Assembly: GCA_026003195.1 (NCBI GenBank)
Contig: BPGU01000001.1
Location: 186,001-250,000, forward strand
DNA from: Armatimonadota bacterium
GTDB taxonomy: Bacteria > Armatimonadota > HRBIN16
Direction: 5' to 3'
DNA length: 64,000 nt
Shown here: one piece after another, positions 4,496 to 55,108 of the stretch
Layout of the letters: every line of letters begins with the position of its first letter
Numbering within the stretch: position 1 is the first letter of the stretch
Position numbers and translations under genes: made by a program
The notes under the pieces: generated by a model
Seen by the model: the letters and a program-made list of their open reading frames with translations, nothing else
Told to the model about the DNA's origin: nothing
The model's database searches: none

Positions 4496-4796
4496 ATGTT
4501 ACGACGCTTTCCGTCTCTGCGCACACTGGCTACCGTGTGCATCCTGAGCCTCACCGTGCAGGTAGCCGCTCCGCTCTTCGCCTCCTCCGACATGAGGGGT
4601 GGGAGTAGAAAGGACAGTTTCCTCCCTTTCCACTGACAACAATCCCTCTTCCAGCAAACTGCTCGCCTGGACAAACGGGCTATGGAACCTCATCCTCTCC
4701 CATTTGCAATCGGGTGCACCACCCCTGCAACCTGCTCGGGGTTCCCCACAGCCCTGGCAACCCGCTTACCCCGTCTACAGCGGAGTAGCGAGGTGA
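4496..4796 (+). pseudogene. Signal-peptide leader of the Rhs gene, out of frame with the repeat region
   Basis: An ATG at 4496 with AAAGGAGGGGG upstream starts a classic Sec signal peptide (MLRRFPSLRT..., hydrophobic ATVCILSLTVQVAAPLFASS), but the frame stops at 4634-4636. A second frame (4599-4796) carries a hydrophilic, protein-like segment containing KLLAWTNGLWNL, and the YD repeats begin in the first frame again around 4790. The start of the Rhs gene therefore looks like a patchwork of frames. It may be a real frameshifted or partly deleted 5' end, a sequencing error in the GGGG runs, or decay. Intact Rhs genes of this type would fuse this signal peptide to the repeats. Confidence 0.55.
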
Positions 4797-6559
4797 CGGC
4801 GGTGACCGACCCGATGGGCAGGCAGACGCAGTTCACGTATGATGCCACAGGCAACCTGACGCAGGTGCGTGACCCGCTGGGCAACACCACCCGTTACAGT
4901 GACCAGTGCTGTCGGGTGACGCAGCGCACGGACGCATTGGGCAGAGTGACCACCTACAGTTACGACGGTTGGGGCAGGCTGGTGGGGATAGACTACCCGC
5001 AGAGCGCGGACGTGTCGTTGCAGTATGATGCGGAGGGCAGATTGATACAGTCGGTGGACGGCACGGGCACGCGCACCTTCAGTTACGACAGTTGGGGCAG
5101 GCGGGTGCAGCAGGTCTCTCCTGCGGGCACGACGACGGCGACGTATGATGGGGCAGGCAGGCTCACCCGCCAGACAGACGTGACGGGCAGGCAGATAACC
5201 TACAGTTACGACGGCGCAGGCAGGCTGGTTCGGGTGTCGGACCCCACGAGTTGGGTGCAGTATACGTATAACGCCAACAGTGCGGTCACCCGTGAGGTAT
5301 ATTCCAACAACACGCGGGTGGATTACACTTACGACAGCGCGGGCAGGGTGACGAGCGTGCAGCATCGGGTGCACTCCACGGGAGCGCTGATCATTGGCTA
5401 CGCGGTGACGTATGACAGTGCTGGCAGGGTGACGCGCATCACCGAGAGCCCCACGAACGCGGTGACCACCTACCAGTATGACGGGGCTGGCAGGCTGTTG
5501 CGCGAGGAGCGGACGGTGAACCGCCCCTACTTGGGAGAGTATCAGTATGACGCTTCCGGCAACCGCACCTATGCTCGTCGTGTGGAGAACGGTGTAGAGA
5601 CGCATCGTGGCACGTATACGTATGACGGCGCAGGCAGGCTGGTTCAGGTAGTGGATGCAGCCACCAACACGACCGAGACGTATGTGTGGAACACGGACGG
5701 CACGTTGGCGAGTTTTCCGGGTCCGGGTTACACGCGGTTCCTGGAGTATGACGAGGAGGGGAGGCTCATCCGCATTCGCCGGGATTACGGTGGTGGCAAC
5801 GTGCAGTTGGCATACGAATACGCCTACGGTTTTGACGGCGGCAGGCGGTGGCGCAAAGACTACGTGAACGGTGTCTGGACACGGTATCCCTGTGGTGTGG
5901 CGTGCGGAGCGGGTGAGCTGGTAGAGCAGCAGAAGCCGCTGGAGGGTGGCAGCTGGACGACGAGTGCCCTGTATCTGCAGGGTATCTCTTTGGTGCGTCG
6001 AAACAGTGAGTGGCATCACTTTGACCCGCTGGGCACGGCGGGGGTGATCACGAACGGTTCTGCTAGTGTCATCAGCAACAACCTGTATGATGTGTTCGGG
6101 GTGTTACGGTATCAGCAGGGCAGTGCGCAAACGCCGTGGAGGTGGTGGCTCCAAGGCGCAGAGGAGTATTACCTATATATCGCCGGGATGGGCATTGTTT
6201 ACAACAGCAAACACACATCAAGCAGCCTACTGCGCTATTACTCCACTACGGCGACGTTCCGTCACAGGTCGGCCAGGCTACCCAAGTTCCCCAAACTCAA
6301 CCCTGCATGTTTGGGATGTTTACTTGGTGTTCCACTATTTATACCCTACTTCGCAGATTGCGGCTGGCCTTGGACGCCAGGCTGGCGCGATTGCATTAAC
6401 ACGTACTGGGATGCTTTTTACGAGGAGTGTACCAGTGACGTCTTTTGTAAGGCAGCGATAGCAGGTTGTCTTTTCGCTTGTGGGCTAGATGCGCCGGATG
6501 TAGTGAAGTGGCTAAGGCGCGTGTTGAAGGTCATCGGTGCGAGCCCTTCTGAACACTGA
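4682..6559 (+). CDS. Rhs/YD-repeat protein with variable C-terminal tip (tip 0)
   Basis: A 625-residue open frame. From about residue 38 there are roughly a dozen YD repeats (YDATGNL, YDGWGRL, YDAEGRL, YDSWGRR, YDGAGRL, YDSAGRV, YDASGNR and so on) that build the Rhs shell. The core ends with HHFDPLGT near residue 445 and the NNLYDVFGVLRYQQGS...TPWRWW junction near residues 465-488. The last ~137 residues are a different, cysteine-rich hydrophobic tail with eight Cys. It is short for an Rhs protein and its first ~35 residues are probably not native, because the true signal peptide (4496) is in a broken frame. Rhs proteins usually deliver C-terminal toxins to neighbouring cells; a 5-TM protein follows directly as the likely immunity partner. 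Confidence 0.85.
   Translation: MEPHPLPFAIGCTTPATCSGFPTALATRLPRLQRSSEVTAVTDPMGRQTQFTYDATGNLTQVRDPLGNTTRYSDQCCRVTQRTDALGRVTTYSYDGWGRLVGIDYPQSADVSLQYDAEGRLIQSVDGTGTRTFSYDSWGRRVQQVSPAGTTTATYDGAGRLTRQTDVTGRQITYSYDGAGRLVRVSDPTSWVQYTYNANSAVTREVYSNNTRVDYTYDSAGRVTSVQHRVHSTGALIIGYAVTYDSAGRVTRITESPTNAVTTYQYDGAGRLLREERTVNRPYLGEYQYDASGNRTYARRVENGVETHRGTYTYDGAGRLVQVVDAATNTTETYVWNTDGTLASFPGPGYTRFLEYDEEGRLIRIRRDYGGGNVQLAYEYAYGFDGGRRWRKDYVNGVWTRYPCGVACGAGELVEQQKPLEGGSWTTSALYLQGISLVRRNSEWHHFDPLGTAGVITNGSASVISNNLYDVFGVLRYQQGSAQTPWRWWLQGAEEYYLYIAGMGIVYNSKHTSSSLLRYYSTTATFRHRSARLPKFPKLNPACLGCLLGVPLFIPYFADCGWPWTPGWRDCINTYWDAFYEECTSDVFCKAAIAGCLFACGLDAPDVVKWLRRVLKVIGASPSEH
6074..6147 (+). repeat. Rhs junction repeat, copy 0 (in the main gene)
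   Basis: The junction that separates the Rhs core from its variable tip, encoding SNNLYDVFGVLRYQQGSAQTPWRWW. Near-identical DNA recurs at 7204-7278, 8572-8646, 10567-10639 and 11551-11622, each followed by unrelated sequence. Such homology is what recombination would use to swap tips into the main gene. Confidence 0.9.
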
Positions 6560-7176: not shown

Positions 7177-7722
7177 ATGACGAACGGGAGTGCACAGGTG
7201 ATGAGCAACAACCTGTATGACCTGTCCGGGGTGTTGCGCTACCAGCAGGGCAGTGCGGAAACGCCGTGGAGGTGGAGGCACATTTCCATAGGTGAAGACG
7301 GTATGCAGGTCGTTCCTACAAGCGCTTGCTGGATAGTGGCTTCAGCCAGTGCGTCCTCCGCACCGCACTGTAACAATCCTCACTGCGGGCGCATAATACC
7401 ACCACCGAGCCACTACCCGTTTCATGACCCAATATGGCGTGGTCCCTGCTGGTGGGTGTGCTCAATGCTTGCTGGCGCGTTAGCGCTAGGCTGGATTAAC
7501 TGCTCAAACAGGGGGCTTCAGTGGACGCAGTTCGTAGAGTGCGTTCTTTGTGACGTCCTCACCTCTAACCGCAACCTCACCTTAGGAGGATGCTTAGCAT
7601 GTCTTTGCGGGCACTGGGGACCTTGGGCGGCGGCTATCTGCGGTATAGTTGGGTCGTTAGGCGGTTACCTATACTGTCGCCTGCGGGGATACGGCGGCCC
7701 TTTAGTAATAGGGTATCGCTGA
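7177..7722 (+). CDS. Orphan Rhs C-terminal tip 1 (cysteine-rich)
   Basis: The ORF opens with an Rhs junction segment (MTNGSAQVMSNNLYDLSGV...TPWRWR), matching the main Rhs core from the residue after DPLGTAGV, so this is a displaced Rhs tip and not an independent gene. The match extends about 27 nt further upstream than in the other orphan copies. After the junction come about 147 residues with 13 cysteines, including the HCNNPHCGR and GGCLACLCGH motifs, in glycine- and tryptophan-rich hydrophobic context. There is an ATG at 7177 but no convincing ribosome site or promoter, as expected for a silent cassette. Its 5' end follows the tip 0 immunity gene by 16 nt. Confidence 0.75.
   Translation: MTNGSAQVMSNNLYDLSGVLRYQQGSAETPWRWRHISIGEDGMQVVPTSACWIVASASASSAPHCNNPHCGRIIPPPSHYPFHDPIWRGPCWWVCSMLAGALALGWINCSNRGLQWTQFVECVLCDVLTSNRNLTLGGCLACLCGHWGPWAAAICGIVGSLGGYLYCRLRGYGGPLVIGYR
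7204..7278 (+). repeat. Rhs junction repeat, copy 1
   Basis: Second copy of the ~75-nt junction; differs from the main copy mainly in GACCTGTCC for GATGTGTTC and GGAAAC for GCAAAC. Homology continues upstream to about 7177. Confidence 0.9.
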
Positions 7723-7745
7723 TACCGTAGACGGAGGAAGACGCT

Positions 7746-8510
7746 ATGTTTCTGTGGTGGCGTCAAAAGCAGCGAGAGAGACAGTTCTTCGAGAGCTTAA
7801 GGACGATGGGAGGGAACAGACAGTCCTTTCAGGGTGAGGCTGATGTATCACTGTTGCTGAAGGGGCTGTTCCACCGCGATCCTGACGTAGTGCGCGCCTG
7901 TGCAGAAAGGTTAAGGGAGGTACCTAGCGAGCGAATAGCTGAGGTCTCGCGTCGCTATCTACGGAGCGAGATGAAAACCCTCCCAGGGCTACCCCGCAAC
8001 GCTCGCAGTGTTCGTGCCTATCTACACATTGTGGACCTTTTGTCTACCAATCCTGGGGTACATGCCATAGAGGTACTTGTACACCTCGGTTCCACTGAGG
8101 GAGGCGAGGTTCGCAGGAGAACTGCTGAAGTACTACAACGGCTTATTGGAACCCAACAGCAGGATATAGTGGCTCTCATGCTATTACTAAAAGAGCGAGA
8201 TGCACACTGGATACCAAAGATGTGGAGAGCCTATGATATTGCTGGCATTTCGTTTGGCTTGATAGCCTACATGTGTTATTTGTTGATAGAGAAGATCATA
8301 GTCGTGACTGACCTACAAAGGTTTGCAGTGATGCTCGGGGCAAGTGCTTTTGCGCTTGTCTTGATGGTACTGATCTTCCGACCTGTGCGGACCAGTAAAA
8401 ATGCCATGCGAGGCCTTCACGATTTTCTTTTCACACTATTCCGGCAGTTAATGGACAGGAGGGATCTTTGCTCAGCATTACGCACATATATGACGGAGCG
8501 TTTGCCTTAA
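7746..8510 (+). CDS. HEAT-like membrane-anchored protein, candidate immunity protein for tip 1
   Basis: A 254-residue protein with a GGAGGA ribosome site. Residues ~28-150 are an alpha-helical, HEAT/ARM-like region (repeated blocks such as LLLKGLFHRDPDVVRACAERL and VRRRTAEVLQRLIG). Residues ~160-210 hold two hydrophobic segments (ISFGLIAYMCYLLI and FAVMLGASAFALVLMVLIF), so the repeat region likely faces the cytosol. It begins 24 nt after tip 1. The position fits an immunity gene; no specific family was recognised. Confidence 0.65.
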   Translation: MFLWWRQKQRERQFFESLRTMGGNRQSFQGEADVSLLLKGLFHRDPDVVRACAERLREVPSERIAEVSRRYLRSEMKTLPGLPRNARSVRAYLHIVDLLSTNPGVHAIEVLVHLGSTEGGEVRRRTAEVLQRLIGTQQQDIVALMLLLKERDAHWIPKMWRAYDIAGISFGLIAYMCYLLIEKIIVVTDLQRFAVMLGASAFALVLMVLIFRPVRTSKNAMRGLHDFLFTLFRQLMDRRDLCSALRTYMTERLP

Positions 8511-8565
8511 CTAAGGCACTCGTGTCGAGACGGCTACAAGTGCCAGCGTCCTGACCAGGTGGCGT

Positions 8566-9096
8566 GTGAGCAGCAACAACCTGTATGATGTGTTCGGGGT
8601 GTTGCGCTACCAGCAGGGCAGTGCGGAAACGCCGTGGAGGTGGAGAAAGGCACAAACGACTGACGAAACGATGCTTTTGGTGACACCTACAACAGTTGTT
8701 ATTCCCAATCGCGCGATGCACCAGAAGGCTGGTGCTGACACTATTTATGCTCAGATGGCATGCTTTGGTCTCGGTACGCCCATAATCGGCGGCGGTGCTT
8801 TCTTGGCCGTGCCGGCGTCGGTATGGAGGTGGTTCGAGTGCCGTATGGTGTATTATGCCTGCCTTGCTGTAGGATTAGCGGCGTTTGCTGCATGTATCGC
8901 GGTGGTCACTTTGCTGGTTACCCTATGTCTGGGATCTTGTGCACTCGTGCCTCCCCCTTATAACCTACTCTGCTTCTCAGGGTGTGCCGCTCTTGCTGCT
9001 GCTGGGCTAGCTGCATGTACTTATTTGTGGGCGGAATGGAAGGGATGGTGCCGACAGGAGTTCCAAATGTGCCTGCGAACTGGGAGGTCACCATGA
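8566..9096 (+). CDS. Orphan Rhs C-terminal tip 2 (very hydrophobic, cysteine-rich)
   Basis: The frame begins at the Rhs junction (MSSNNLYDVFGV...TPWRWR) with a GTG at 8566 and no good ribosome site, so it is probably silent unless recombined into the main gene. The ~150-residue tail has 11 cysteines and several long hydrophobic stretches (PIIGGGAFLAV, ACLAVGLAAFAACIAVVTLLVTLCLGSC, CAALAAAGLAACTYLW), which would suit a membrane-inserting or pore-forming toxin. Its stop codon overlaps the start of the next gene as ATGA. I recognise no toxin family. Confidence 0.72.
   Translation: MSSNNLYDVFGVLRYQQGSAETPWRWRKAQTTDETMLLVTPTTVVIPNRAMHQKAGADTIYAQMACFGLGTPIIGGGAFLAVPASVWRWFECRMVYYACLAVGLAAFAACIAVVTLLVTLCLGSCALVPPPYNLLCFSGCAALAAAGLAACTYLWAEWKGWCRQEFQMCLRTGRSP
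8572..8646 (+). repeat. Rhs junction repeat, copy 2
   Basis: Third copy of the junction DNA. It encodes the same NNLYDVFGV...TPWRW peptide as the main gene. The repeat begins abruptly; the ~55 nt before it (8511-8565) hold no recognisable Rhs sequence. Confidence 0.9.
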
Positions 9097-9452: not shown

Positions 9453-10430
9453 CGGCTGCACGACAGAGAGGGGATGCCTCCAATAGGCACGTATCACATC
9501 CCGAATGATGCGCTGCTTCGCCTCATACCAACTCACCCCGCTGCGTAAACGATACGACTCCAACCGTCAAAAGGCACGTAACGCACACTGCAAGTGCCCC
9601 AACCAGGACACCACCTGACGAACCTGCGCGCGCTCCACCCCGCAACACTGCTTCAAAGCACGATGGTATTCCTCTATACCCCAACCCATCTGTTCCCACT
9701 TCGCACGCTGTGCCTCCGTCATCTCTCAGTCGTCCGTCGCCCAGTATTCCACGTCTCCGTTGGAGGAAACTGTCCGAAATACTTTGACGAAACCGAACGC
9801 CTTCAGATGAACTATCCGACCCTGCGCGCCTATCTCTACCGTGCCCAGAGGCACGTTCCCTTTCCCATCGGGGTTCACCAAGCGGTTGCTCTTGAGCCTC
9901 GTCAGAAAGTGCCAGCCCAAAGTGCGTATCGCCTTCAGGTTCTCTACCCCACAATACCAACTGTCCATCTGAACATACTTGGGTGTGAAACCGCGAGCGG
10001 GCGCTACCCCAAGCATCGCCCGAAAGAACTCGTTCTTCGTCTCCCTCTTGGTATACACCCAATAGTCACAGGGAACGAGCGCCTCCCCTTGTGTCCACAG
10101 CAACGTCAACAGGCAAATGCCTTGGACCACGCGACGGTGTTTGCCACTCCAGTGGTCACAGACCAACTCCATCTGCTGCGCATAGGGCTTGTCTAAGATG
10201 GTGTCGTCTAAAACCAGTATCCCCTTCTGCTTGTCTATCCACTGCTGTGCTTGTTGCCACAACGCCTCCGTATCGCAAGACTGTCTTGCCAGCAGGCGGG
10301 TGCAGGCATCGTGCGCGGCTGTGCCCTGTGTATCGGGTTGGCATCGGGCGGCTTCCGTGCAGGTGAACACCCTTTGGCTGGCGATGAGGAAGTGGGTGTA
10401 GTCCGTGTCATCACATTGGGGTGGGTTCAC
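9444..10430 (-). pseudogene. IS701-family transposase, interrupted by two TGA codons
   Basis: The uninterrupted frame would be 328 residues. Residues 1-234 (9726-10430) include LVLDDTILDKPYAQ and YVQMDSWYCGVENLK, which carry two catalytic aspartates. After a TGA (9726-9728) the same frame continues with GWGIEEYHRALKQCCGVERAQ, which holds the catalytic glutamate. A second TGA (9567-9569) follows, before the final TAA at 9444. In relatives as I remember them both TGA positions are leucine (ATNDLEMTE and RAFLRLE), so each is a single-step TTA/TTG-type change. The enzyme is almost certainly dead because its glutamate lies beyond the first stop. Confidence 0.85.
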
Positions 10431-10566: not shown

Positions 10567-10639
10567 GGCAACAACCTGGTTGACCTGTTCGGGGTGTTGC
10601 GGTATCAGCAGGGCAGTGCGGAAACGCCGTGGAGGTGGC
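10567..10639 (+). repeat. Rhs junction repeat, copy 3
   Basis: Fourth junction copy, slightly diverged at its start (GGCAACAACCTGGTTGACCTG). An in-frame TAA (10549-10551) lies just upstream and there is no start codon before the repeat. Confidence 0.88.
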
Positions 10640-11118
10640 AGAGTGCGATCTTAGCGGAAGAAGGGTTTTCTCCATCCGAGGGACTATTTATACTGCCCAG
10701 TGTGGGAATATTTACCGACAGGATGATACTACCTGGTATTTTCATCGGGATTAGCATTTGTCTGCTGCAGGCGTGGCGATATGTCACTCAGTTTGACTTT
10801 GGTAGTGGATTCCCAGAAGTGGACAAAGACAAATTGCAGCACTGCTTTCTGTGTTGCCGAATCGTGAAATGCACATTACTGCTTGGTCCAGATATGGCGT
10901 TCAGATTGCAGGTGCTGTGGGAGATCATTGGTCCCCTGCTTGGAAGAGTCCGGTTCGACCTGGAGGACGCTCTCAGGGATACCGCAGCCTGTGCAAGGGG
11001 TATCGGAATTGGGTATATAATCACCGAGTCTTGTCTCACAGGCTGTGCTCGCTCGCTGAATAGACCTGTCCAAGTTGCGACGCCGCTTGTAACACTCGCA
11101 CAGCCTTGCAGATACTGA
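10594..11118 (+). CDS. Orphan Rhs C-terminal tip 3
   Basis: The homologous frame begins at 10567 inside the junction repeat; the first possible start is a GTG at 10594, without a ribosome site, so this is likely a silent displaced tip. The tail after TPWRWQ is about 159 residues: a hydrophobic part (ILPGIFIGISICLLQAW), then a cysteine cluster (HCFLCCRIVKC), and near the end ACARGIGIGYIITESCLTGCARS. It has nine cysteines in all. No toxin family was recognised. The IS element sits directly upstream. Confidence 0.68.
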   Translation: MLRYQQGSAETPWRWQSAILAEEGFSPSEGLFILPSVGIFTDRMILPGIFIGISICLLQAWRYVTQFDFGSGFPEVDKDKLQHCFLCCRIVKCTLLLGPDMAFRLQVLWEIIGPLLGRVRFDLEDALRDTAACARGIGIGYIITESCLTGCARSLNRPVQVATPLVTLAQPCRY

Positions 11119-11192
11119 GAGCACTTATGCGTGCACGACGCAGCGCACCAAAGACAAATGGTAACCAGAACAACAGGGTATTGGAGTCGAAA

Positions 11193-11519
11193 ATGAACCC
11201 AAGATGTCTCATTCCGTTAGCAGTACTGGTAGTGTATGCAACGTGGAGTTTGCCTGTTTTGTACCTTCGGGGAGAACTCTTAGCCCTGACCGGAGGTATA
11301 CGCCCCGGTATGACGCAACAGGAGGTGCTTCGAATCGCAGGTAAGCCAAAAGGTGTCTACACTGCAGAACAAATGGACAGCGTTTACAGGGGCTACCATC
11401 CCGTTCCGCTTATCCAGGCGGAGGGTGATCTCTGGATATATGACGTACTCATGTTCCGTGTGATTGTGCATTTCGATAAAGCGGGCAAGGTACGCTGTAC
11501 AGATATGGTATACACCTGA
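11193..11519 (+). CDS. Membrane-anchored BamE/SmpA-like small protein, candidate immunity protein for tip 3
   Basis: A 108-residue protein starting MNPRCLIPLAVLVVYATWSLPVLY, a membrane anchor or signal peptide without lipobox. The remainder resembles the BamE/SmpA (OmlA) fold: GIRPGMTQQEVLRIAGKP, a predicted WIYD strand, then VIVHFDKAGKVRCTDMVYT. That fold is known in envelope proteins and in beta-lactamase inhibitors, where it binds protein partners. I chose the ATG at 11193 (GGAGTC upstream) over an upstream in-frame start that overlaps the tip. The gene follows tip 3 by 74 nt, so an immunity role is plausible. Confidence 0.62.
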   Translation: MNPRCLIPLAVLVVYATWSLPVLYLRGELLALTGGIRPGMTQQEVLRIAGKPKGVYTAEQMDSVYRGYHPVPLIQAEGDLWIYDVLMFRVIVHFDKAGKVRCTDMVYT

Positions 11520-11550
11520 GTGAGGGACGAAGCCAACAGAATCGGTGGTC

Positions 11551-11622
11551 AGCCATAACCTGTATGACCGGTTCGGGGTGTTGCGGTATCAATAGGGCAG
11601 TGGGAAACGCCGTGGAGGTGGA
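11551..11622 (+). repeat. Rhs junction repeat, copy 4 (damaged)
   Basis: Fifth junction copy. CAGCAG has become CAATAG, which puts a stop in the core frame, and one base is missing in the GTGCGGAAAC part (GTGGGAAAC), which shifts the frame before ETPWRW. The tip can still be used if recombination takes place downstream of these lesions. Confidence 0.88.
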
Positions 11623-11969
11623 GCCAGCATGCAGAGGAAACCTTTCCACCTGGTTTCATGCACTATGCTATCGCGGGATGTGGCAAAGGAATCTTCGAAG
11701 GAGGCGGCACCAACGAGGAGAAACTGTATGACCGGGCTCAACAGTGGGAGTGCGTGATAGTGGTGGTTACCGAGCATGAGAAACGCTGTGTTTGTTCCTA
11801 TGGTGCTTGGCAGAAAGAGGATTGGGAGGATCACTACCGATACCGTTTGTACAACAACTGCAAGCATTTCGTACTCGACGTCTTGCAGGCATGTCTATTC
11901 AAACCGCCAAAGGACCTGCCCGCGCTGTACAGGTTGTTCGGCGACGGCAAGTGCCGAGCTTTATGGTGA
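11551..11969 (+). pseudogene. Orphan Rhs C-terminal tip 4 with LRAT-like domain
   Basis: After the damaged junction the frame is open from the ETPWRW motif to 11969. An ATG at 11658 gives 103 residues. The tail has HYAIAGCGKGIFEGG near its start and YNNCKHFVLDVLQACL near residue 75. The order His ... Asn-Cys-x-His-Phe-Val matches the LRAT/H-Rev107 type of permuted NlpC/P60 fold, in which this His and Cys are catalytic and the NCEHFV motif is the hallmark. Enzymes of this fold cleave or transfer acyl groups on lipids or amides. The junction mutations silence it in place; the domain itself looks intact. Confidence 0.65.
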
Positions 11970-12000: not shown

Positions 12001-13011
12001 ATGCGGTGGCGTTGGTGCATCATCAGTTTGTGCGCGGTTGTGGTGCTGGCTGGCTTCGCTTGGTTTCTCTGGAGTAGAACGGCGCCGATCACCATGACGC
12101 AGGGCGCTGTCCTGTGGGGTGCGAACGCTGTGCCACAGCCGCGGCGGTCTAATATGTCTTTCGTAAGCGGGGCGGCCGGTAGAGGGATATATATCCTTCA
12201 GTTGGACTCGTTGGAGCCGCCGCGGCTGGTGTATGCGACTTCGGGCACTCAGCCTGTGGTATTCTCTGTAGACAAGAGTACTGTGGTTGTTGTCAGAGAC
12301 AAGCCTCAGGCGCACGCAGCTCGAAAGCCTTTGTCGTCAACCCCGCGGGTACAACACTCTTACCTTTTGCTGGATTGGCGTACTGGGCATACCAAGCCCA
12401 TCGTAGTACCGGATGGGGAACTGCTGTCTTTGCATCTCGGCAGGTTGTTGGCACTGTTGCGCAAGGACGCACATGTGTTTCGAGTGCAGGTCCACGTCGA
12501 GCCGTCCCGAATCGTCATATTGCCGACAAATCGCCGGCTCCTGTCGCCGTTGCCGGATTGGGCAGGCGCCACCTTGTCCCCGAAGGGGAGGTACGTTCTT
12601 ATTCATGATCGCGGGCATGGGTCAGGCGGACATGCTACAGTACGCTCTGCGAGCGACGGCATGATAGTCACCGACTTTGCGGCGAGCTCGGCACAGTTTC
12701 TCAAGGAAGGGAAGGATTGGTTTCAGGTCGTGTACACCAGCCGCGGGCGACTGTTTCTTTTCGACAGCAGAGGAAGACTGCCTCGCGTGCTCTCAACCGA
12801 TGTCGGCAATGAGCGGTTGGTCGCTGCTTCTCCAGATGGAAGGTGGGTTGTTACAGCATTCCGCACAGCCGACTTCCGGGAGTTGTTGAAAGGGTATCCC
12901 TACTTGGAACACGCCAAGTTACGCATACGTTCTGCAGAGGACGGCAAGGTGTGGAGAACATGGACAGCGGGGAACTCGGTGGGCGGAGTCGTAGCGGCAT
13001 TATCAGAGTGA
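12001..13011 (+). CDS. Membrane-anchored beta-propeller-like protein, candidate partner of tip 4
   Basis: A 336-residue protein with one N-terminal transmembrane anchor (CIISLCAVVVLAGFAWFLW) and a large extracytoplasmic part. Repeated segments such as GRGIYILQLDS, HSYLLLDWRTG, ATLSPKGRYVLIHD, GRLFLFDSRGR and VAASPDGRWVVTAF are typical of WD40/TolB-like propeller blades. It follows tip 4 by 31 nt. The gene may encode the immunity protein of tip 4, or be an unrelated propeller; no family was identified. The start has only a weak ribosome site (ACAGG). Confidence 0.6.
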   Translation: MRWRWCIISLCAVVVLAGFAWFLWSRTAPITMTQGAVLWGANAVPQPRRSNMSFVSGAAGRGIYILQLDSLEPPRLVYATSGTQPVVFSVDKSTVVVVRDKPQAHAARKPLSSTPRVQHSYLLLDWRTGHTKPIVVPDGELLSLHLGRLLALLRKDAHVFRVQVHVEPSRIVILPTNRRLLSPLPDWAGATLSPKGRYVLIHDRGHGSGGHATVRSASDGMIVTDFAASSAQFLKEGKDWFQVVYTSRGRLFLFDSRGRLPRVLSTDVGNERLVAASPDGRWVVTAFRTADFRELLKGYPYLEHAKLRIRSAEDGKVWRTWTAGNSVGGVVAALSE

Positions 13012-54211: not shown

Positions 54212-55108
54212 TTGCCCCGAGCGGTAGTGGTTCATAACGTGGTCAAAATGCACGCCCAGCCCGACGGTGAGAGCGAGCAGGTCTCTCAGACGATACTGGG
54301 ACATACCCTGTTGCTGCCAAGCGCGCCCGATGCCGGGCAAGACTGGGTGAGCGTACAGACGGACGACGGTTACACGGGGTGGGTACGGGCGAAGCAGATA
54401 CGCCTGCTCGCTGAAGGGGAGGAGTATCCTGTACCCGGGCAGGTTTACCGCGTCAACGCGCTATGGGCTTTTGTCCGCGAGAGACCCGACGCCAATGCTC
54501 CCCACCTGACCATTGCTCCCATGGGAGCCTGGCTGGAGGGGAACGAGTGGTATGAGGATTGGCTGCAGGTTGTTCTGCCGGACGGACGTACGGGCTGGGT
54601 GGGGGCGCAGGATATGACCCCGCAGTGGGTCATGGTCACCCGCGCTGGCTCGTTGCGTGTCGAGGGAATGGTTCTTCTGCAGGGAAAAACTGCAGAGCCT
54701 TACCGCGTGCCCCGCATAGGCTGGCAAAACGCTCTGGTATACACCGCCAAAAGGCTGCTGGGCGTTCCCTACCTGTGGGGAGGCAGTTCGCCTTTTGGAC
54801 TGGACTGCTCGGGCTTTGTGCAGCTGGTGTATCGGATGTGTGGGGTGGTGATACCACGAGATGCCGACCTGCAGGCGGATTTTGCCCGAACCACCGAGGT
54901 GGAGCTGGCGCAAGCGCAACCGGGCGACCTCATCTTTTTCGCAGGGGGCAACGACCCTCACCGGCGCACCGTGACACACGTGGGGATGGTTGTGGACCCG
55001 GAGCACTTTATCCACTCTGCGGGCGGTGTGGGCGTCCACATCACTCGTCTGGACGAGCCCTATTACCGCTCCATCCTGTGGGGGATGCGGAGAGTGCTGG
55101 ACCCTTAG
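54212..55108 (+). CDS. NlpC/P60-family cell-wall hydrolase with SH3 domains
   Basis: A 298-residue protein. Two SH3-like domains (residues 1-70 and 75-150, with GYTGWVRAKQIRL and GRTGWVGAQDM) precede the NlpC/P60 catalytic domain: Cys199 in GLDCSGFV, His256 in THVGMVV, and a third residue near HFIHSAG. It cleaves peptide links in peptidoglycan. The start is TTG at 54212 with GGAGGAGG upstream. No signal peptide is seen, so export may need a different start or pathway, or the protein works on imported peptides. Confidence 0.86.
   Translation: MPRAVVVHNVVKMHAQPDGESEQVSQTILGHTLLLPSAPDAGQDWVSVQTDDGYTGWVRAKQIRLLAEGEEYPVPGQVYRVNALWAFVRERPDANAPHLTIAPMGAWLEGNEWYEDWLQVVLPDGRTGWVGAQDMTPQWVMVTRAGSLRVEGMVLLQGKTAEPYRVPRIGWQNALVYTAKRLLGVPYLWGGSSPFGLDCSGFVQLVYRMCGVVIPRDADLQADFARTTEVELAQAQPGDLIFFAGGNDPHRRTVTHVGMVVDPEHFIHSAGGVGVHITRLDEPYYRSILWGMRRVLDP

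Follow-up and report, generated by a model that had tools for sequence, protein, structure and literature searches.

It is established that Salmonella has orphan rhs-CT/rhsI modules with immunity genes linked to them, whose displaced tips can return to use via recombination with the main rhs gene (PMC3967940). Canonical NlpC/P60 domains and several papain-like tips have been described in polymorphic toxins by Zhang et al. (PMC3482391), and the direct characterisation of a lipid-targeting permuted NlpC/P60 toxin came only recently, with an effector of the Salmonella T6SS (PMC12994826). This effector, Tox-Act1, has a permuted NlpC/P60 domain with phospholipase activity on PG and PE, requires both its His and its Cys, and is paired with a membrane-associated immunity protein (PMC12994826). 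LRAT and its cluster have C-H-H catalytic residues, of which the second His is the third residue, and a GD motif on the first strand (PMC10318531).

Here we consider the last tip of an RHS locus in the window, that is, the whole stretch of 64,000 nucleotides of Armatimonadota DNA that was analysed. We propose that 11622-11969 is a displaced orphan RHS tip, that its intact relatives are permuted NlpC/P60 Cys/His domains acting on the envelope, that the next gene provides immunity and that the window copy is silent, and we give this reading, taken as a whole, a probability of about 0.68. The features are the following:

4682 to 6559, + strand: C-terminal part of an RHS core with the present tip, 625 aa, without its own N-terminal half or signal peptide (PF05593, E 2.1e-58).
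6095 to 6145, + strand: RHS junction copy 1, in the main frame.
7225 to 7275, + strand: RHS junction copy 2, where an orphan tip starts.
8593 to 8643, + strand: RHS junction copy 3, where an orphan tip starts.
10588 to 10638, + strand: RHS junction copy 4, where an orphan tip starts.
11509 to 11621, + strand: junction copy 5, with an in-frame stop and a frame shift (repeat pieces 11509-11607 and 11603-11626).
11622 to 11969, + strand: orphan RHS tip, a putative permuted NlpC/P60-like (LRAT-like) Cys/His domain without its first strand (homologs, alignments and a window-free profile test).
12001 to 13011, + strand: partner gene, 336 aa, with one predicted N-terminal membrane segment and then a soluble, possibly beta-propeller domain (homologs in L006, L007 and L008).

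The RHS locus consists of a core with its tip, followed by four more junction copies, each before a different tip; a small gene comes, as a rule, after each orphan tip, and the tip at 11622-11969 is the last of them. The junction repeat (family D1/D6) is present in five copies, at 6032, 7162, 8530, 10525 and 11509, and the fifth, an RHS core remnant, lies directly 5′ of the tip. Together with the finding that relatives of the tip end RHS proteins, this bears out the original prediction that the domain is an orphan tip of an RHS toxin, which may have been left behind once another tip replaced it at the end of the core. According to the same prediction, the junction silences the tip through a stop and a frame shift; both were indeed found in copy 5, and neither in copies 1 to 4, so that the tip cannot be reached by read-through from the start of the junction. 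The tip has no start signal of its own, and its first in-frame ATG, at 11658, stands immediately 5′ of the His codon (11661-11663). Given this late ATG and the broken junction, it is not evident how the tip could be made where it stands.

Damage is likewise apparent in the main RHS gene, since a signal-peptide-like sequence upstream of the core and in the same frame (MLRRFPSLRTLATVCILSLTVQVAAPLFASS, 4496-4681) is separated from it by a stop, and the N-terminal half of the core is missing. Between orphan tips of the array, the minus strand carries an IS701-family transposase at 9523-10430, split over two frames (NF049921, E 1e-82). Pieces of RHS core and junction (4682-6145) recur at about 28 places in the genome, clustered on four large contigs, and represent many further tip arrays. 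The other orphan tips of the array and the present tip (7201-9096) are Cys-rich and matched no Pfam family, and the tip at 8566-9096 has four hydrophobic segments; these tips may be membrane-inserting toxins. Behind the preceding orphan tip, a gene at 11106-11519 has one membrane segment and weakly resembles the BamE lipoprotein domain (PF04355, E 2.4e-4, slightly short of the cut-off), and may encode an immunity protein.

Both peptides singled out by the original prediction, HYAIAGCGKGIFEGG and YNNCKHFVLDVL, lie in one + strand frame at 11568-11969, which is open from 11568 and ends with the stop codon at 11967-11969. The Cys codon of the YNNC motif is at 11859-11861, downstream of the His codon, confirming the predicted His-then-Cys order and NC.xF motif, which are also conserved in relatives. 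Single-sequence searches of the tip with phmmer and against Pfam, NCBIfam and the PDB found nothing, which made the relatives essential to the analysis. A search of 291 genomes of the phylum, with matches above E 0.005 left out, gave three clear relatives in another family of the phylum, Armatimonadetes JP3_11, Bacterium HR15 and Fimbriimonadales KatS3mg016 (E values of 1.6e-16, 3.3e-15 and 9.9e-15 among the three). A profile of the window tip and these relatives, with matches above E 1e-4 left out, extended the family to the same genome, the same genus and several other families. When a window-free profile was made from ten relatives at other loci, the tip frame was its sole match among the 1176 frames of the window (E 2.4e-14), indicating that the His/Cys motif belongs to a conserved protein family and did not arise by chance. 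The family matched no Pfam or NCBIfam model, and no tip relatives were found on plasmids or in viral contigs.

The His is invariant in 12 of 12 aligned members and the Cys of the NC motif in all 11 with a readable 3′ end; L098, with its end out of frame, was left out of the latter count. A Gly and five more cysteines hardly vary across the 12, the cysteines conserved along with His 14 being those at window residues 20, 44, 56, 58, 80 and 91. A conserved His before a conserved Cys in the tip of a polymorphic toxin supports the view that the domain is probably an enzyme, although a thiol enzyme would not usually have five additional conserved cysteines. The cysteines suggest disulfides, and thereby an oxidising compartment. 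Elsewhere, the tip ends long open RHS proteins of 1189, 1289 and 1317 aa, the first from HR15 and the other two from more distant members, and in intact relatives the domain is the C-terminal end of an RHS protein. The 1317-aa frame is intact, lies elsewhere in the window's own genome and begins with a signal-peptide-like sequence. Beside this intact relative, at L041:485-1090, is one more RHS tip, of a different His/Cys type (DHAFIRFDL...TWGFWP); this tip and the membrane gene behind it are found again in locus L042 of the same genus.

The window copy alone lacks a strand that is present in 11 of the 12 aligned members some 10 to 25 residues N-terminal of the His, with the consensus CxRPV (CxRDV or CxRPL in single members). 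Its junction runs directly into the His region, and it looks shortened at its 5′ end besides being silenced. In a low-confidence AlphaFold model of the HR15 tip, made with three relatives (mean pLDDT 59), CxRPV forms the first strand of the sheet. With this strand gone, the window copy is a poor candidate for a return to use. The loss of the strand is new with respect to the original prediction, as is the conserved partner gene that comes next.

This partner gene begins 31 bases downstream of the tip, and its reading frame is intact. A model built from the HR15, JP3_11 and KatS3mg016 partners matches 12001-13011 as its sole match in the window (E 2.8e-8), and the homology to genes behind the same tip, in four genomes in all, runs along the length of the protein. 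Its synteny with the tip over two families of the phylum makes 12001-13011 a probable immunity gene, whose product would be membrane-anchored with its soluble part outside; weak Pfam hints of propeller-like repeats in the soluble domain come from the relatives only. Six more distant tips are followed by partners of other kinds, predicted to have one, four or six membrane segments, and the tip of locus L042, from the same genus, has no partner behind it. All 10 downstream partners examined have at least one predicted membrane segment by a loose test that also counts 16 of 36 ordinary genes of the window (44%), and several of the partners are mutually related, so the membrane segments lend the immunity reading modest support.

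An alternative is that the window tip is a decaying fragment only and that selection keeps the partner as a stand-alone protection gene. The missing first strand, the broken junction, the lack of a start signal and the truncated core all agree with decay. The partner has an unbroken frame of 336 codons and homology along its length, which agrees with its being kept. However, the tip frame is free of stops and has kept all the invariant residues. We give this alternative an even chance, and it is compatible with the displaced-tip reading rather than opposed to it.

As to the fold, the original prediction had named an LRAT-like domain, and the name holds for the Cys motif and the order of residues, but not for the other hallmarks of that family. 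The His comes first, followed by the Cys in an NC.HF motif, both in the alignment and in the profile comparison. Compared with the profile of eight bacterial LRAT proteins, the Cys motif scored 31.8, when column shuffles had a mean of 10.9 and a maximum of 19.8 (0 of 150 as high), in a match that spans 17 columns and the Cys motif only. Thus, when His and Cys were checked against the LRAT catalytic residues, the Cys motif aligned and the His region did not align to LRAT by profile comparison. No member reached the PF04970 cut-off, the window tip had no match to it, and the best relative gave E 0.067 (13.9 bits against a cut-off of 24.3). The second catalytic His of LRAT is absent, the matching strand reading IFEG or IFEV in the close group and GYG or GFG in most others, and so is the GD motif, at whose place 11 members have CxRPV and the window copy lacks the strand.

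The weak Pfam matches of the family are mainly to two families, LRAT and PPPDE, about equally good. In both, which are permuted papain-like families, the His precedes the Cys, and this makes a permuted papain-like fold the fitting reading. Canonical NlpC/P60 domains (PF00877) have Cys before His and a DCSGF motif, and do not fit, as the order in the tip is reversed and no Pfam match was obtained; a profile comparison with them (single and doubled) drew on one usable sequence and does not amount to a true control. A canonical NlpC/P60 domain does occur in the window at 54761-55093 (E 3.5e-25) and is unrelated to the tip. A search for Peptidase_C92 in 81 genomes of the phylum gave no match at E 1e-6. 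We regard as chance both a PADLOC match, to a type IIG enzyme (E 0.035), and the hits on TRPC3 channels in the PDB. AlphaFold gave the window tip alone a mean pLDDT of 47, also low confidence, and the Foldseek and VIA-align lists obtained from the low-confidence models contain no permuted-papain chain, which says nothing either way. The order predicted in these models (strand, strand with the His, strands, helix, helix with the Cys) fits a permuted papain fold. The intact domain would most likely have a circularly permuted NlpC/P60 fold, with the His on an early strand and the Cys where the last main helix begins, and "permuted NlpC/P60-like Cys/His enzyme" is a safer name for it than LRAT.

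Considering the findings on Tox-Act1, the conserved cysteines and the membrane-located partners, we take the intact members to be, probably, envelope-acting Cys/His enzymes. Such a tip could cleave an acyl bond in the envelope of the target cell, most likely in membrane phospholipids; by analogy, membrane lipid is the likeliest single substrate, though we would put its chances somewhat below even. A more particular reading, which we hold tentatively, would make this an Armatimonadota-specific RHS tip family, disulfide-bearing and permuted papain-like, with the CxRPV first strand, a Cys/His pair and a membrane substrate of its own, countered by membrane proteins of several kinds, unrelated to each other, among them a propeller-like protein tethered to the membrane.

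The same permuted papain fold could also belong to a PPPDE (Peptidase_C97)-type peptidase or deconjugase, or to a peptidoglycan amidase, rather than to an acyl-acting enzyme. Three sequences have PPPDE as their best, though weak, match in Pfam (E 0.014, 0.0064 and 0.078, the last being the whole protein of the first), a PPPDE domain is the best PDB sequence match (E 0.22), and the tips show a Cys/His pair only, as PPPDE does. Yet every match is below the cut-off (for PF05903, 16.8 bits for the best tip against 29.2) and confined to the Cys motif, and the membrane-located partners suit an envelope target better than a cytoplasmic one, leaving this alternative unlikely. Least probable of all is a small Cys-rich toxin outside the papain folds, in which the invariant His and six cysteines would form disulfides or a metal site and NC.xF would be convergent: the conservation of those cysteines with His 14, the Cys-rich nature of the other tips in the array and the lack of a fold match in the low-confidence models speak for it, but the 'Y....NC..FV' stretch matches LRAT above all shuffles, and the predicted order of His strand and Cys helix fits a permuted papain fold.

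If our reading is correct, a phylum that has been little studied and is largely uncultured has a separate permuted NlpC/P60 toxin family on its RHS proteins; intact members of the family are named above, and its candidate immunity proteins are of several kinds. What is of interest is this family rather than the window copy, which is a dead spare. The family is unmatched in Pfam and NCBIfam, yet toxins of the permuted NlpC/P60 kind are already known, as are orphan RHS tips, and the comparison with them is as follows. Like the rhs-CT/rhsI orphans of Salmonella, the window tip is displaced, follows a core remnant, lacks a start signal, has a linked and here probable immunity gene, and recurs on full-length RHS proteins elsewhere; it differs from them in the stop and frame shift of its junction and in the loss of its first strand. 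With LRAT/H-Rev107 (PF04970) the family has in common the His-then-Cys order, a Cys motif like 'Y.LL.NNC.HF' and a significant local profile match, and it differs in staying below the cut-off, in lacking the second His and GD, and in having extra conserved cysteines and the CxRPV strand. PPPDE (PF05903), whose known members are deubiquitinases and deSUMOylases, is alike in the weak Cys-motif matches and the lone Cys/His pair, and differs in that the matches fall below the cut-off. By analogy, the family is more safely assigned to the same general type as Tox-Act1 and TseH, both permuted NlpC/P60 toxins. Tox-Act1, likened here by type and not by sequence comparison, resembles it in the polymorphic-toxin context, the His before the Cys and a downstream membrane-associated immunity protein, to which the partners with predicted membrane segments would correspond, and differs in being delivered by a T6SS, whereas the tip family rides an RHS core with a signal peptide.
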